NCBI RefSeq assembly: GCF_000468495.1
Contig: NC_022444.1
Location: 2,977,745-3,016,547 of the forward strand
Reading direction: 5' to 3'
Origin: Megalodesulfovibrio gigas DSM 1382 = ATCC 19364
GTDB taxonomy: Bacteria > Desulfobacterota > Desulfovibrionia > Desulfovibrionales > Desulfovibrionaceae
Length of the DNA stretch: 38,803 nucleotides
Shown: in pieces, positions 16,772 to 38,803 of the stretch
Layout: every line of letters starts with the position of its first letter
How positions within the stretch are numbered: the first letter of the stretch is position 1
The notes under the pieces: generated by a model
The model's database searches: none
What the model was told of the DNA's origin: nothing
Seen by the model: only the letters and a program-made list of their open reading frames with translations
Made by a program: the position numbers and the translations under genes

Positions 16772-17266
16772 ATGCCAGCCCCCATCACCGTTGATCTGCT
16801 CAGAATTCCCATGCTCCGCTCTGTCGGGGTTGAGATGCTGTCCCGTCTGGTGCCCATTTCCGAAATGCGTCGTTCCGGAGACGGCGAGCGCATTTATGCC
16901 ATGGGCGAACCGGCGCATCACTTCTTCATCTGCCACAGGGGCGAAGTGCTCTCCGAGCAAGCCATTGCACGGGACATCACCGCCACGGTTTCCGTCATCA
17001 CGCCCGGGTCTTGCTTCGGCTGGCCCGCCCTGCTGCCCAACGGCATTTACCGCAGCGACGCCGTGAGCCAGGGAGAGACGGAGTGCATTGCCATTGAGGC
17101 CGCTTCCCTGCGCCAGCTCATGGATACGGACCACGAATTCGGCTACACCCTGTACAAGGCCATGTGCGGCAGCCTGGTGGAGCGGCTCTTCACCAGGACG
17201 GACCAGCTGTTGCAGCTCGTTTCCTTGCATCCGGATCTGCGCGCCGCCATCACGCGCGAGGAATAA
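16772..17266 (+). CDS. CRP-like cyclic-nucleotide-binding-fold protein without DNA-binding domain
   Basis: 164 aa. Residues 15-120 form a cNMP-binding beta-roll: MGEPAHHFFICHRGEVLS, then PGSCFGWPALLPNGIYRSDAV as the phosphate-binding cassette. Aligned with E. coli CAP, R94-S95 match R82-S83, but the ribose-binding Glu72 is W84, so the ligand may not be cAMP. A helix follows and the protein ends; there is no helix-turn-helix. It is the last gene of the antiporter operon (9 nt after the third D-like gene, AGGAG upstream) and just before the terminator. It could gate or sense for the antiporter, or bind another partner; this is inferred from position. Confidence 0.8.
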   Translation: MPAPITVDLLRIPMLRSVGVEMLSRLVPISEMRRSGDGERIYAMGEPAHHFFICHRGEVLSEQAIARDITATVSVITPGSCFGWPALLPNGIYRSDAVSQGETECIAIEAASLRQLMDTDHEFGYTLYKAMCGSLVERLFTRTDQLLQLVSLHPDLRAAITREE

Positions 17267-17321
17267 GCTTCCCCTGCGCCGGCACAGGGCGATGTCGGAT
17301 TCGAATACGATGATCACGCCA

Positions 17322-17363
17322 CGAGGAGTCGTTCCCCACAGAGAACGACTCCTCGTTTTATTT
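17322..17363 (+). terminator. Intrinsic terminator of the Mrp-type operon
   Basis: A perfect 13-bp stem, CGAGGAGTCGTTC (17322-17334) with GAACGACTCCTCG (17343-17355), an 8-nt loop and then TTTTATTT. It lies 55 nt after the last gene of the operon. Confidence 0.93.
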
Positions 17364-17690
17364 GGCATGTGGCAATCTACTCGCCGAGCACCGGCAAGCA
17401 GTTTTTGCTCGCGTGTCAATTGTATTGTTGAAAAATGCTCTCGGGGCATCCCTGTCTGGCGAAAGGATCTTGCCGCTCGCAATAGTCTTTTAGAGCATTG
17501 TAATTTTGAAAAAGGACATTGCGAGAGGGGAAAACTTTTGCAAAAGGTTCTCCCCTCTCGCGCTCTCCCCTTCCAAAACTTTAATAGTGCCCTTGAATCA
17601 CAATAAAAAATCTTTGGAAAAGGGGTTCGGGGGAAGAACCTTTCTTTAGAAAGGTTTTCCCCCGAGAGTTCTTTTCAAAAACAACGTACT
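17364..17690. other. Gene-free stretch with hairpin repeats
   Basis: No gene is visible. The part up to about 17490 shows no coding signal, though 17416-17445 has a weak resemblance to the repeats that follow (TTGAAAA..CTCTCGGGG). The rest is two inverted copies of one repeat family, 17491-17561 on plus and 17629-17693 on minus, listed separately. Confidence 0.7.
17491..17561 (+). repeat. Hairpin repeat, copy A
   Basis: Begins TAGAGCATTG, then TAATTTTGAAAAAG. A strong hairpin follows: 11-bp stem GCGAGAGGGGA/TCCCCTCTCGC (17521-17531 with 17551-17561), extended inside by TTTTGCAAAA. The opening 24 bases match the last 24 bases of the window at 22 positions. Confidence 0.75.
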
Positions 17691-17693
17691 CTA
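17629..17693 (-). repeat. Hairpin repeat, copy B (inverted), starts at the NFACT stop codon
   Basis: Read on the minus strand: TAGAGTACG, TTTTTGAAAAG, CTCTCGGGGG, then a hairpin of GGGGGAA/TTCCCCC plus AACCTTTC/GAAAGGTT around a TTTA loop, with one bulged base (17629-17663). Order and wording parallel copy A. The first TAG is the stop codon of the NFACT gene. It may also act as that gene's 3'-end hairpin. Confidence 0.65.
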
Positions 17694-19256
17694 AACTATG
17701 GCGAGTTGCAGTTCAAGGTCCTTCATCATGGCCGTCTGCACCGTCTCCAGCAGCGTATCCACACGAACCTGCCCTGGCGCACCGCCCTTGATCGGGTGCA
17801 CGTCCTTGGCCAGGGCCAGCAGCACGCGGACCTTGCCTTCGCCGGCCTGCCAACTGCGCAGGGCAGCCAGCACCGCCGCTTCCTCAATGGTCCGGCGGGG
17901 CACGTCCTGCCCGGCGTGGTCGCGCTTGATGAGCACATGACTGCCGGGGCCATCGGCCGCATGGAGCCAGTAATCGAAGGCATTGGCCTCCCGCGTCACC
18001 AGCCTGTGGTTGGCCTTGGAATTCTTGCCTTGCATGATGCGGAACCCGTCCGAAGAGCGGAACAGGCGGAACCCCTCTGCCCCCTCCGAAACTTTCGGAC
18101 GCGGACGGGCCCGGGGCGGCTGGCCGGCACCGGCAGTCGCCGCGGCCGGCGCGCCATGCTCCAGAATCCGAGCGCGTTCCGCCTCGATGACCTCGCGCCG
18201 CGTCCTGGCAATCTCCAAGCCACGTTCCGCCTTGGCTCCCTGCCGGAAGCGGCGGGCCATGTTCTCGGCAATGGTCAGGCGCGGATCCAGCTCCAGGACC
18301 ACCTCGGCGTCGTGCGCATCCATCACCTTGACCCGCCTTGCCTTCTCCTGGGCGTTGAGCCGGAACAGATTGGCCTGCAGCAGCAAGGCTTCCTCCCGCT
18401 GGAGCAGCAATCCGTGCAGGCGGTGCTCCTCCTGCTCCAGGGCCTTGAGATTGCGGGACAGGCGCTTGCGGCGCGCGCTGGCGGCATCGGTCTCGGCCTT
18501 GTGCTGGGTGGCGACCACCGCCGGCAGCACCTGACGGCGACCGGCCTCGGCGGCGGCTTCCGCCGCACTGGTGAACACCTGCGGCGGCTCAGCGGCAGTG
18601 GGATCGGCCCAGACGAAGGGGCCGGCCGCATCATACAGATAGAACGCCCCGCAGCCGCCGGCCTGTACCGTGGCATACATGGGCCCGGCCACATCCGGCG
18701 GCAGGGTCAGCAACATCTTGCGCAAGGGGGGGGAAATGTGCGGATGCGTGCGCCAGATGTCTTCCTGCTGCAGCAGCGTTTCCAGCGACGGCCACTCGGG
18801 GGCGGCATTCCAGACGGGCGGCACGTCCGGCGGCACAAAGCCGGACTGCGGGGGGATGGTCCAGTGCTGCGGGAGCTCGTCCAGGGTCAAGGCCAGGAAC
18901 AGGCCATGCCGAAGATCGATGATGCACCAGCCCTCGCCGTCGTCAGGTCCCAGGCGGATGGCCAGACGGCGCTGGGGCCAGTCGGCCACAAACTCCATGC
19001 ACCGCCGCGCCTGCACATGGCGGCGCAGCCACATGACCGTGGCCGAAGGCGCAGGGGGGTTGGGCGGGGTGATGCTGGAGGGGAAGAGGCAGGGATCGCG
19101 CCGGCCCAGCCGGATCACCAGGGACGAGGCCAGGCCGCCACGATCCAGGGTGAGGACGAACACATCCGGGGCAGGGCCGTACACCTTGCGGACAAGCGCC
19201 CCGCGACACAATGCGGCCAGTTCAACGGCCAGACAACGAAAAAAACTGGCCTCCAT
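17691..19256 (-). CDS. NFACT-family protein (RqcH/Rqc2-like)
   Basis: 521 aa. An NFACT-N domain is at about 1-190, helical coiled coil at about 245-370 (RRKRLSRNLKALEQEEHRLHG...), a low-complexity Pro/Arg linker at about 378-395, and an NFACT-R (DUF814) domain at about 400-505 with GFRIMQGKNSKANHRLV, DYWLHAADGPGSHVLIK and PGQVRV. Relatives (RqcH) bind 50S-peptidyl-tRNA and add C-terminal alanine tails in ribosome rescue. The conserved Asp-Arg pair needed for tailing in B. subtilis appears as Q95-R96 here (PQRRLAIRL), so that activity is uncertain. It lies 42 nt downstream of dksA and is probably co-transcribed. Confidence 0.85.
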   Translation of the reverse strand: MEASFFRCLAVELAALCRGALVRKVYGPAPDVFVLTLDRGGLASSLVIRLGRRDPCLFPSSITPPNPPAPSATVMWLRRHVQARRCMEFVADWPQRRLAIRLGPDDGEGWCIIDLRHGLFLALTLDELPQHWTIPPQSGFVPPDVPPVWNAAPEWPSLETLLQQEDIWRTHPHISPPLRKMLLTLPPDVAGPMYATVQAGGCGAFYLYDAAGPFVWADPTAAEPPQVFTSAAEAAAEAGRRQVLPAVVATQHKAETDAASARRKRLSRNLKALEQEEHRLHGLLLQREEALLLQANLFRLNAQEKARRVKVMDAHDAEVVLELDPRLTIAENMARRFRQGAKAERGLEIARTRREVIEAERARILEHGAPAAATAGAGQPPRARPRPKVSEGAEGFRLFRSSDGFRIMQGKNSKANHRLVTREANAFDYWLHAADGPGSHVLIKRDHAGQDVPRRTIEEAAVLAALRSWQAGEGKVRVLLALAKDVHPIKGGAPGQVRVDTLLETVQTAMMKDLELQLAIV

Positions 19257-23012: not shown

Positions 23013-23128
23013 GCAATAATCCACCCCCCCGCAAAAAAATCATCCACCGCCCTCCCCCGCTCGCGCCCTCTCCTGCCAACACATTCCAACAAGCTGTTTT
23101 TAAGGATAAAATCCCTCCGAACGCGCTG

Positions 23129-37055: not shown

Positions 37056-38402
37056 ATGCAAATCGTCTGCCCCAAGTGCCAGTTTGCCCGCGAGCTTCCC
37101 GACGACAAGGTGCCTGCCAACGCCAAGGTGGCCACCTGTCCGAGATGCAAGATCAAATTTCAATTTCGGGAGCTGCCGGACGAAGCCGCTGCGCCGGCGG
37201 CACCGCCCGCCCGTCCTGCAGGAACGCCACCGGCGGCGGGAACGCCTCCGCCGCCTGCCAGCGCGCCGCCCTTGCCGGGTTCCCGGCAGGCGCAGGCCCC
37301 CGGCCGTGTGGGCCTCAGGCCGCCGACCGCGCCGGGTGATCCCGGGGAAGGCATCTGGAACCGCCTGGAGGCCATGCCTCCCGGTGCCGTGCCCCCGGCC
37401 TTTGATCCGGATACCGCCGCGCCGTCCAGGCATGGTTCCCCGGCGCCAGGGTTCCCCCCGGGCGTTGCTGCCGGGCGTGATCGAAGCCAGCCGGCAGGGC
37501 CAGCCCAGACGCACAGGCTGATCAAAAACCCCCTGGAAGAAGCCGCAGAAGCCGAATATGCCGCGGAACAGGCCCAGGAACAGGCCGCGGAACAGGCCCA
37601 GGGCGAACCGGGCTTCCTGCGCTATACCCGCCGCAACACAGGCGCCGCCCAGCCCTCTCATGCCTCGCAGACCTCTCAGACCTCTCAGACCAGGGGCGCA
37701 GCCGAGGACTTTGCCCAGCCCTCCTACATGCGCGACCACCAGCGCCAGCAGGAACGCGGCGGCCGGCACAACGACGTCCCCTGGGAACACCCCCGGGAGC
37801 ATGGCGGCTGGCTGAAGGCCCTGGTCGCCACCAGCAAGGCCGTGCTGTTCGCGCCTTCGTCCTTCTTCCGCCACATGCCCGTGGGCGGCGGCGTCTCCAA
37901 GCCCCTGATCTTCGCCATGCTCATGGGCACGTTCCAGGCGCTGATCACCCTGATCTATCAGGAAGCCGGCCTCTCGATTTCCCTGAACGACGACGCCGGC
38001 ATGAGCCAGACCGCATTGGCCGCCGTGACCATCGGCCTGGTCGTCGCCATGCCGCTCCTCATCGCCATCGGCCTGTGCATCCACTCCTTCTTCACCACCC
38101 TGGCCCTGCGCGTCTTCAAGGCCGCCGGCAACGGCTACGAAGGCACCTTCCGCGCCATGGCCTATGGCACCGCGGTGTCACTGTGCACCATCATTCCATT
38201 CGTGGGTCCGGTTATCGGCGGTATCTGGGGCTTTGTGCTGATGTTCATCAGCCTGAAGAACATCCACGGCACCAGCTATGGCAGGGTGATCCTGGCCGTC
38301 CTGTTCGTGATTGTCCTTGTTGCCGTCCTGTTCGCGGTGCTGGGCATGCTCCTGGCCCTTGGCCTGGGGGTGGGGCTGTCCATTCTGGGAGGCGGGGCCT
38401 GA
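37056..38402 (+). CDS. Zinc-ribbon (MJ0042) plus Yip1-domain membrane protein
   Basis: 448 aa. The N-terminus is an MJ0042-type zinc ribbon: C5-P-K-C8 and C28-P-R-C31 within residues 2-37. Residues 40-240 are a Pro/Ala/Gln-rich linker with short in-frame repeats (EQAQ/EQAA and SQT). From about 250 comes a Yip1-family region with FAPSSFFRHMP and five transmembrane segments (about 270-290, 310-335, 360-385, 390-405, 415-440). The ribbon is cytoplasmic by topology. The function is unknown; it may link a cytosolic partner to the membrane. GAAGG is the only ribosome-binding site. Its stop overlaps the next ATG by 1 nt. Confidence 0.85.
   Translation: MQIVCPKCQFARELPDDKVPANAKVATCPRCKIKFQFRELPDEAAAPAAPPARPAGTPPAAGTPPPPASAPPLPGSRQAQAPGRVGLRPPTAPGDPGEGIWNRLEAMPPGAVPPAFDPDTAAPSRHGSPAPGFPPGVAAGRDRSQPAGPAQTHRLIKNPLEEAAEAEYAAEQAQEQAAEQAQGEPGFLRYTRRNTGAAQPSHASQTSQTSQTRGAAEDFAQPSYMRDHQRQQERGGRHNDVPWEHPREHGGWLKALVATSKAVLFAPSSFFRHMPVGGGVSKPLIFAMLMGTFQALITLIYQEAGLSISLNDDAGMSQTALAAVTIGLVVAMPLLIAIGLCIHSFFTTLALRVFKAAGNGYEGTFRAMAYGTAVSLCTIIPFVGPVIGGIWGFVLMFISLKNIHGTSYGRVILAVLFVIVLVAVLFAVLGMLLALGLGVGLSILGGGA
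37566..37689 (+). repeat. Short in-frame tandem repeats in the Yip1 gene
   Basis: Three 12-bp units GAACAGGCCSMG (37566-37601, EQAQ/EQAA) and three 9-bp units of CCTCTCAGA type (37663-37689, coding SQT). Both lie in the disordered linker and keep frame if copy number changes. Confidence 0.9.
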
Positions 38403-38782
38403 TGCTGCGGAGGCTGCGCGCCTGGATGCGCACGCGGCTGTGCCAGATGCGCCACGATCTGCGTCGGACGCTTGACGCCCTGCGGGAACGCCGTCAACTG
38501 GAACGCGAATTGACGGCCGAATCCTTCCGCGACCTGGCCCGGGAACTGCGCGAACTGGCCGGCCTGTGTCGCGCCCTGTGGCCCCGGCAGCATGCCTTTC
38601 AGGAGCGCATCAAGCGTATTATGGACGAAATGGAGCAGCTGGACCGGCTGGCGGCCACCCCGCAATTCCGGCGGCTTTCTTCCCAGAAGCGTCTGGAGAT
38701 CAGAAAAAGTCTGCTGCACTCCCGCAACCAGCTCATGGAGACGGTGCAGAACGCCCCGGCGCCCACCACCACTCTGCAGTAG
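38402..38782 (+). CDS. Small coiled-coil protein
   Basis: 126 aa, starting at ATG 38402, overlapping the previous TGA by one base, with GGGAGGCGGGG upstream. It is almost entirely helical and highly charged: an Arg-rich N-terminus (MLRRLRAWMRTRLCQMRHDLRR), then heptads of Leu and charged residues to about residue 110, and a short Pro/Thr tail. It has no signal peptide or membrane segment. The overlap with the Yip1 gene implies coupled translation and perhaps a shared complex at the membrane. I do not recognise the family. Confidence 0.75.
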   Translation: MLRRLRAWMRTRLCQMRHDLRRTLDALRERRQLERELTAESFRDLARELRELAGLCRALWPRQHAFQERIKRIMDEMEQLDRLAATPQFRRLSSQKRLEIRKSLLHSRNQLMETVQNAPAPTTTLQ

Positions 38783-38803
38783 GGCATTTTAATTTTGAAA
38801 AAG
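38780..38803 (+). repeat. Hairpin repeat, start of copy C (cut by the window end)
   Basis: TAGGGCATTT then TAATTTTGAAAAAG. Matches the opening of copy A (17491-17514) at 22 of 24 positions. Its first three bases are the stop codon of the coiled-coil gene. The hairpin part lies beyond the window. Confidence 0.75.

Follow-up and report, generated by a model that had tools for sequence, protein, structure and literature searches.

The genome of Megalodesulfovibrio (Desulfovibrio) gigas, a sulfate-reducing member of the Desulfovibrionaceae, contains a hairpin repeat whose first TAG can serve as the stop codon of the gene before it. The stretch analysed here (38,803 bp of contig NC_022444.1, hereafter C2, positions 2,977,745 to 3,016,547; hereafter the window) carries this repeat at 17491-17693, and it raises the question of why a dispersed sequence should meet genes exactly at their stop codons. 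A sequence-only reading of the window had described three copies of the repeat, A, B and C, and had suggested that it settles at or replaces gene 3' ends, possibly as a terminator or mRNA stabiliser, or leaves altered C-termini. As judged from its sequence, the repeat is a non-coding miniature inverted-repeat transposable element (MITE) of the IS630/Tc1 type. Probably it is mobilised in trans, inserts at TA, rebuilds stop codons and brings paired 3' hairpins to the genes that it adjoins.

Structure and copy number of the element

The sequences and coordinates are as first described. B starts at the TAG at 17693-17691, which is the stop codon of the minus-strand open reading frame (ORF) at 17691-19256; copy C starts at the TAG at 38780-38782, which is the stop codon of the plus-strand gene called at 38402-38782; and A does not coincide with the stop codon of a called gene. 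A and B are, however, not separate copies but the two ends of one element of approximately 203 bp including both TA dinucleotides (199 bp between them), because 36 of the 40 matches scored in a whole-element search of the genome (345 first-look candidates) cover at least 172 of the 203 bases. This complete MITE lies at 17491-17693 on the plus strand in the A-to-B orientation, as defined by the genome search, the alignment of 40 copies and the end scores.

The left TA (17491-17492), preceded by T, is taken to be duplicated target DNA, as at another copy, for which the exact empty site described below is available. It is followed by the A-type terminal inverted repeat (17493-17518, plus strand; end score 46.3), of which the consensus among copies matches both ends of a resident IS630-type insertion sequence (IS) at L060. 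Hairpin A, the first copy of the family-wide hairpin unit, occupies 17520-17562 on the plus strand and is followed by its tail CTCTCCCCTTCCAAAACTTT, and hairpin B, the second and inverted unit copy, is read on the minus strand at 17626-17666. Both are identified by the predicted fold and by matches to the unit model R1 (G000:C2:2995246-2995330, plus strand, and G000:C2:2995347-2995429, minus strand). The B-type terminal inverted repeat follows at 17667-17691 on the minus strand (score 38.9; alignment), and the TAG stop codon of the minus-strand gene (17691-17693) consists of the right TA and the first base of the element. This gene (17691-19256, minus strand) encodes 521 amino acids, and its orthologue at L142 has the same last residue. 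The predicted fold of 17489-17695 has a free energy of -84.3 kcal/mol (z -8.0), in which the TAG of the element is approximately 28 bases away from the hairpin. The consensus of the 40-copy alignment reads TA-GAGCATTTTAATTTTGAAAAAGGA, a long hairpin GCGAGAGGGG...CCCCTCTCGC, the tail CTCTCCCCTTCCAAAACTTT and a variable spacer, followed by the inverse tail, the second hairpin and the inverted end finishing ...TGCNC-TA. The interior of the element thus consists of two inverted copies of one hairpin unit with their tails.

Allowing up to 3 mismatches, the central motif is found 102 times in the genome and the end motif 280 times, as compared to 0 matches for each in the reversed control. The element is therefore dispersed, as had been proposed, and the concern that it might have few other copies does not hold. 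The total in D. gigas is estimated at 150-200 elements without a full census. The counts given below refer not to the whole genome but to a sample of 378,207 bases in 111 stretches. These comprise the window together with the part of copy C beyond it, the 40 matches scored in the whole-element search, 60 of the 66 further places listed for the central motif (100 of its 102 matches are listed) and 20 of the 39 places with the end motif only. Genes were called by a simple codon-based caller and not taken from a published annotation. The sample contains 78 paired copies, of which 35 have an assembly N inside. In one of the 78, that of the window, the B end was paired with a weak end at 17415 instead of 17493, which leaves the stop-codon result unchanged. 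This weak end belongs to the region (17415-17445) that had been suspected of being a fourth, decayed copy. That copy is unproven and may be a chance match: its B-type score is 14.7 as compared to 46.3 and 38.9 for the true ends, it has no TA, a stray match located within other genes at 23116 reaches 15.6, and the reversed control gives 3 end matches scoring at least 14 in 378 kb. Copy C is represented in the window by its first 24 bp (38780-38803, plus strand) and continues beyond it: an assembly N, directly after the end of the window, precedes its B half. Strong hairpins may have blocked sequencing at the positions where copies contain N.

Relation to IS630 and insertion at TA

A search for DDE_3 detected two places, L060 and L061. 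The IS at L060 (1398-2398) is approximately 1.0 kb long, and either end of it shows 96% identity to the first 23-24 bp of the element. Its coding sequence for DDE_3 (E 2.4e-30) and helix-turn-helix domains is divided between two frames, which may represent either a programmed frameshift or decay. One neighbouring ORF extends 12 bases into this IS. The IS copy at L061 retains one end only.

The ends of the element are preceded by TA in 173 of 249 cases in a scan in which the outer two bases were not scored (threshold 10, at which the reversed control gives 31 matches versus 381 before de-duplication). TA is present at both edges of 46 of the 78 paired copies, at one edge of 30 and at neither edge of 2, and the sites reconstructed from the copies with TA on both sides conform to YTAR in 25 of 46 cases. 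The same-genus genome G001 provides an exact empty site, GTGT-TA-GCCGAAC, for the D. gigas sequence GTGT-TA-element-TA-GCCGAAC (C2:1470041-1470142). The flanks are near-identical in the two genomes, and the gene ending at this site is 95% identical between them. The TA of the empty site is part of a TAA stop codon in G001, and the stop codon of D. gigas at this position is TAG. At the upp locus, the partner gene is not beside upp in eight relatives, and therefore no empty site is available there; the scan of genome contigs yielded one relative only. Insertion at TA with its duplication is a hallmark of the IS630/Tc1 group. The element is therefore classed as an IS630/Tc1-type MITE from its IS630 ends and the duplication of TA.

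The following mechanism is proposed. The transposase of an IS630-type IS with the same ends would move the MITE in trans. Insertion would take place at TA, preferably within YTAR, in such a way that the TA is duplicated and a G (sometimes A) is presented beside each TA. When this TA is located inside a TAA or TAG stop codon, it would form a new TAG together with the G of the element, because the ends of the element usually begin with G, and the end of the upstream gene would be kept. A stop-codon TA would thus be a site at which insertion has no cost to the gene. The insertion would also supply one or both genes with a ready-made 3' hairpin, which may function at the ends of transcripts in both directions. 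A TA target combined with a stop-restoring element end would be a simple mechanism by which a transposable element inserts harmlessly into a gene.

Enrichment of the element at stop codons

At least one end of the element coincides exactly with the stop codon of a neighbouring called gene in 61 of the 78 paired copies, and both ends do so in 12. The same is true of 33 of the 62 unpaired strong ends. In comparison, 109 of 977 neutral TA sites (those outside coding regions plus the TAs of stop codons, in the same stretches) are located at stops (binomial p 7e-43), in a pool drawn from stretches chosen around copies and not from the whole genome; for neutral YTAR sites the fraction is 24 of 110 (p 5e-26). 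The enrichment is retained among copies without N (31 of 43) and among those that are also of full length (24 of 29). Thus the proposal that the element settles at gene 3' ends and that its TAG serves as a stop codon is borne out, with neutral TA sites rather than other intergenic hairpins as the comparator.

The gene 3' ends that face an element are positioned exactly at its edge in 73 of 113 cases. The 106 called genes that end at an element have TAG (95) or TAA (11) as stop codons, whereas other genes in the sample end with TGA (106), TAG (80) or TAA (55). The elements are located mostly between convergent (38) or tandem (33) genes and rarely between divergent genes (2), with 5 at an edge (n = 78), whereas the intergenic TA sites of the neutral pool that are not stops and have a called gene on either side are convergent in 67, tandem in 349 and divergent in 142 cases (chi-square p 4e-18). 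A frame test independent of gene calls was discarded as proof: frame 0 is found in 84 of 119 ends with at least 100 open codons and in 68 of 134 control ends, and this control is biased likewise because intragenic TA is mostly in frame. One MITE can thus widely rewrite gene ends in a compact genome, as seen at the base level at one site and by statistics at many.

Selection or targeting

The enrichment may arise either because insertions elsewhere are lost, or because the transposition machinery itself homes on stop codons or transcript ends. Targeting would account for the wide gap between the 61 of 78 copies at stops and the 24 of 110 neutral YTAR sites in D. gigas. It would also account for the near absence of out-of-frame read-in: in addition to the 73 exact gene ends, there is one at -6, and one end of an element is inside a called gene.

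Target preference and selection on cargo can be contrasted by means of other genera that have MITEs with similar ends. The end motif gives 309 matches in G016, 41 in G019 and 35 in G042. The sister MITE of G016 is approximately 125 bp long and is located within YTAR at 46 of 52 sites; it shares a stop codon in 11 of 58 copies, as compared to 56 of 523 sites in the neutral YTAR pool of that genome (p 0.04), and its main end alone is exact in 9 of 69 cases. The sister of G019 is approximately 145 bp long and shares a stop codon in 5 of 17 copies, as compared to 18 of 154 in its pool; the figure of 5 of 17 leaves out 21 unpaired end matches, none of which is exact and many of which are inner repeats. 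These counts were obtained for chosen stretches (306,877 bases of G016, L235-L254, excluding two extra stretches; 85,127 bases of G019, L255-L272) with gene calls and end patterns made as for D. gigas. Both sisters are still somewhat above their pools. They are nevertheless nearer to these pools than the D. gigas element is to its own, indicating that ends of this kind do not by themselves bring a strong preference for stop codons.

In the sisters, the stop-codon rate obtained with similar ends is modest; the very high rate in D. gigas goes with its different interior or its more compact genome. The interiors of the sisters appear by eye to be unrelated to that of the D. gigas element, and the coding share of the samples is 82% for D. 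gigas as compared to 75% for G016 and 77% for G019. These results point to a link between retention at gene ends and either the cargo or the compactness of the genome. Selection is therefore favoured over active targeting, which is considered unlikely. Copies at stop codons would persist because a two-way terminator-like insert is probably harmful elsewhere.

Age of the stop codons and preservation of C-termini

Another possibility is that random intragenic insertions create premature TAG codons, often from TAC or TAT codons, and thereby truncate genes and alter their C-termini. The in-frame bias of intragenic TA that undermines the frame test (68 of 134 control ends) would allow this. A stop codon that is older than the insertion requires an A or G directly after the far TA. 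This third base is A or G in 24 of 26 single-ended cases, or 12 of 13 when the copies holding N are excluded; the control ends give 29 of 42 (one-sided p 0.02 for the comparison with 24 of 26). The orthologues of at least 60% identity (from G001 or the metagenome-assembled genome behind L142) have the same last residue in 11 of 13 cases and differ at the C-terminus in 2. In the relative, the gene for the 521-residue protein of the window ends at the same residue, with TAA, and no element separates it from the same convergent neighbour. These results indicate that insertion of the element mostly preserves C-termini, contrary to the suggestion that they are altered.

Truncation fares better at the copies with a stop codon at both ends, where the third base is C or T in 10 of 24 cases. 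Because these copies often fail the third-base test, some of their flanks must have been rearranged or some of the genes trimmed. The idea that both-ended copies generally sit on overlapping stop codons of convergent genes was abandoned after this test. Eight proteins encoded next to both-ended copies reach within 0-3 positions of the end of their best NCBIfam profile, although 5 of the 8 best models are below the curated cut-off, which argues against truncation even here. Of the copies that could be tested, none of the three with both ends at a stop codon has its gene order kept in G001, as compared to 4 of 5 with a single such end; two other single-ended loci and a locus without a stop were uninformative. 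This result suggests that some both-ended copies arose by rearrangement between copies. Truncation as the general explanation for the TAG codons is accordingly improbable, and the preferred explanation remains that the element rebuilds stop codons that were there before it.

Two loci of G001 are of interest with respect to the age of insertions. At L168 (3674 onward), the orthologue of the gene ending at C2:3571619 ends with TAGAGC followed by a different hairpin, which represents either a shared old insertion or a convergent one. At L173 (G001:C195), an apparent B-type end is present at the same stop codon after the orthologue of the gene ending at C2:1518514, and the insertion at this site may predate the split.

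The hairpin unit as a possible gene-end signal of the family

The hairpin unit of the element is not confined to D. gigas. Model R1 (built from 17 sequences; up to 150 candidates scored per genome) detects the unit in 22 of the 29 family genomes searched, D. gigas among them, representing 21 of 28 genera, with 3-152 matches where present. The family-wide unit consists of a long perfect stem and CCCCTTCCAAAACTTTT (L194-L222). Of 30 loci examined, 29 (including 2 D. gigas copies) allowed the unit to be placed; in 21 it is located after the 3' end of a gene on the same strand, and in 17 of the 21 it is within 30 bases of this end. A crude count for 27 stems gives a mean of 18 pairs, and by inspection the stems differ among genera by paired changes. 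The unit looks like a gene-end signal of the Desulfovibrionaceae. From the position of the element and from this shared unit, a terminator or mRNA-stabiliser action, as had been suggested, is plausible. Literature searches turned up no description of a family-wide hairpin unit of the Desulfovibrionaceae.

The position of single units after genes in other genera, together with their presence without terminal repeats in G006 (149 unit matches) and G014 (25), neither of which has a match to the end motif, would fit a fixed, non-mobile family of terminators that evolved in place at gene ends. Outside D. gigas, this explanation may hold for the single units. It is highly improbable for the compound of approximately 200 bp in D. 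gigas, which is bounded by terminal repeats and TA and for which a relative has an exact empty site.

A more elaborate history of the mobile element is proposed tentatively, as possible rather than probable. The MITE may have captured a tail-to-tail pair of the gene-3'-end hairpin of the family and become a mobile two-way gene-end cassette that spread over stop codons. More than 100 genes would then take their stop codon and transcript end from the element, and some copies would later have become rearrangement junctions between convergent genes.

Several results weigh against a mobile element that rebuilds stop codons and carries functional 3' hairpins. With regard to mobility, the transposase of the one full-length IS found, of which the activity is putative, is split over two frames, and no ORF of at least 100 amino acids stops exactly at the ends of the two IS copies. 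With regard to the rebuilding of stop codons, only one empty site is exact at the nucleotide level; at a second site (C2:606518), TGA and diverged DNA in the relative make the TA unreadable. The stop codons of 5 of the 13 relatives are TGA, which has no TA, or are in diverged flanks, and the stop codon before insertion is not directly visible there. The two differing C-termini, the 14 of 24 both-ended cases that pass the third-base test and the local origin of the neutral pool are to be counted here as well. With regard to the hairpins, no U-tract directly follows those of the element. The stem changes among D. gigas copies keep pairing in 29 cases and break it in 57 (34% kept as compared to 28% expected), and the covariation term is -0.08, so that the changes are not clearly compensatory. 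The D. gigas hairpins may be drifting.

Comparison with known repeats

TA-ended IS630-type MITEs are already known, stop-supplying repeats have already been noted for GTAG repetitive extragenic palindromic (REP) sequences and BOX, and ERIC copies close to stop codons are reportedly found in Yersinia. The comparisons that follow are limited to the accessible parts of the sources. RUP, which is associated with IS630-Spn1, is likewise a short non-coding MITE with ends like those of a resident IS630 and with TA termini, and is over-represented between convergent genes (PMC2229807, PMC3049150). It is 107 bp long, however, and no landing on stop codons is reported in these parts, whereas the D. gigas element rebuilds a stop codon in 61 of 78 copies and contains paired family-wide units. 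Correia/NEMIS, ERIC and similar TA-ended MITEs share TA termini, terminal inverted repeats and strong RNA folds with the element (PMC2229807). Compared by description, RU-1/ERIC differ from it in that their insertions become fused to proteins or lengthen them (PMC2759123), whereas the D. gigas element closes proteins at the stop codon. BOX supplies the stop codon to 36 coding sequences, without strong evidence for truncation, but it is another family with another structure, and no mechanism for precise landing at a stop-codon TA is given in the part available (PMC3049150). SPRITE, a hairpin repeat that resembles a terminator, is enriched near the 3' ends of genes and between convergent genes, but it has one hairpin with an 18-bp duplex and then a U-rich tract, and no IS sharing its ends was detected (PMC3049150).

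GTAG REPs, which are associated with a tyrosine transposase (RAYT), often give the TAG stop codon of flanking ORFs and are located mostly between unidirectional and convergent genes, but they belong to another transposase class and are palindromes of 20-40 bp, for which TA duplication is unmentioned in the part available (PMC3733652). The D. gigas element does not have the form of a 20-40 bp palindrome with a GTAG foot, and the TA of its TAG is the target duplication at the copy with the exact empty site. That it is an element of the REP or bacterial interspersed mosaic element (BIME) type, belonging to the IS200/IS605 RAYT system and supplying stop codons through its GTAG foot, is hardly tenable despite its BIME-like paired inverted hairpins, although no search aimed at a RAYT gene was made. 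Its ends are shared with an IS630-type IS and its target TA is duplicated; the TAG is not at the foot of the hairpin but approximately 28 bases away, and the unit is approximately 200 bp long.

The genome paper of D. gigas counts 17 transposases and, in its accessible part, leaves the repeat unmentioned (PMC4287179). Among the papers listed by searches of the open-access literature, which leaves most subscription papers outside, no report was found of the D. gigas element or of a stop-rebuilding IS630-type MITE. Rfam gives 19 weak matches to the element (E up to 1), none of which reaches the gathering score, and a plasmid collection, searched without phage and E. coli genomes, gives no match to it.

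Other observations

The plasmid contig C1 is 102,023 bp long in the assembly used here and 101,949 bp long according to the genome paper (PMC4287179).

When 17260-17720 was scanned with an intrinsic-terminator consensus, no classical terminator was detected inside the element, and the sole match (17321-17356) is outside it. This match is an intrinsic-terminator-like hairpin with a T-rich tail, located approximately 135 bp before the A end of the element and downstream of the plus-strand gene ending at 17266; 0.8 such sites are expected in shuffled sequences.
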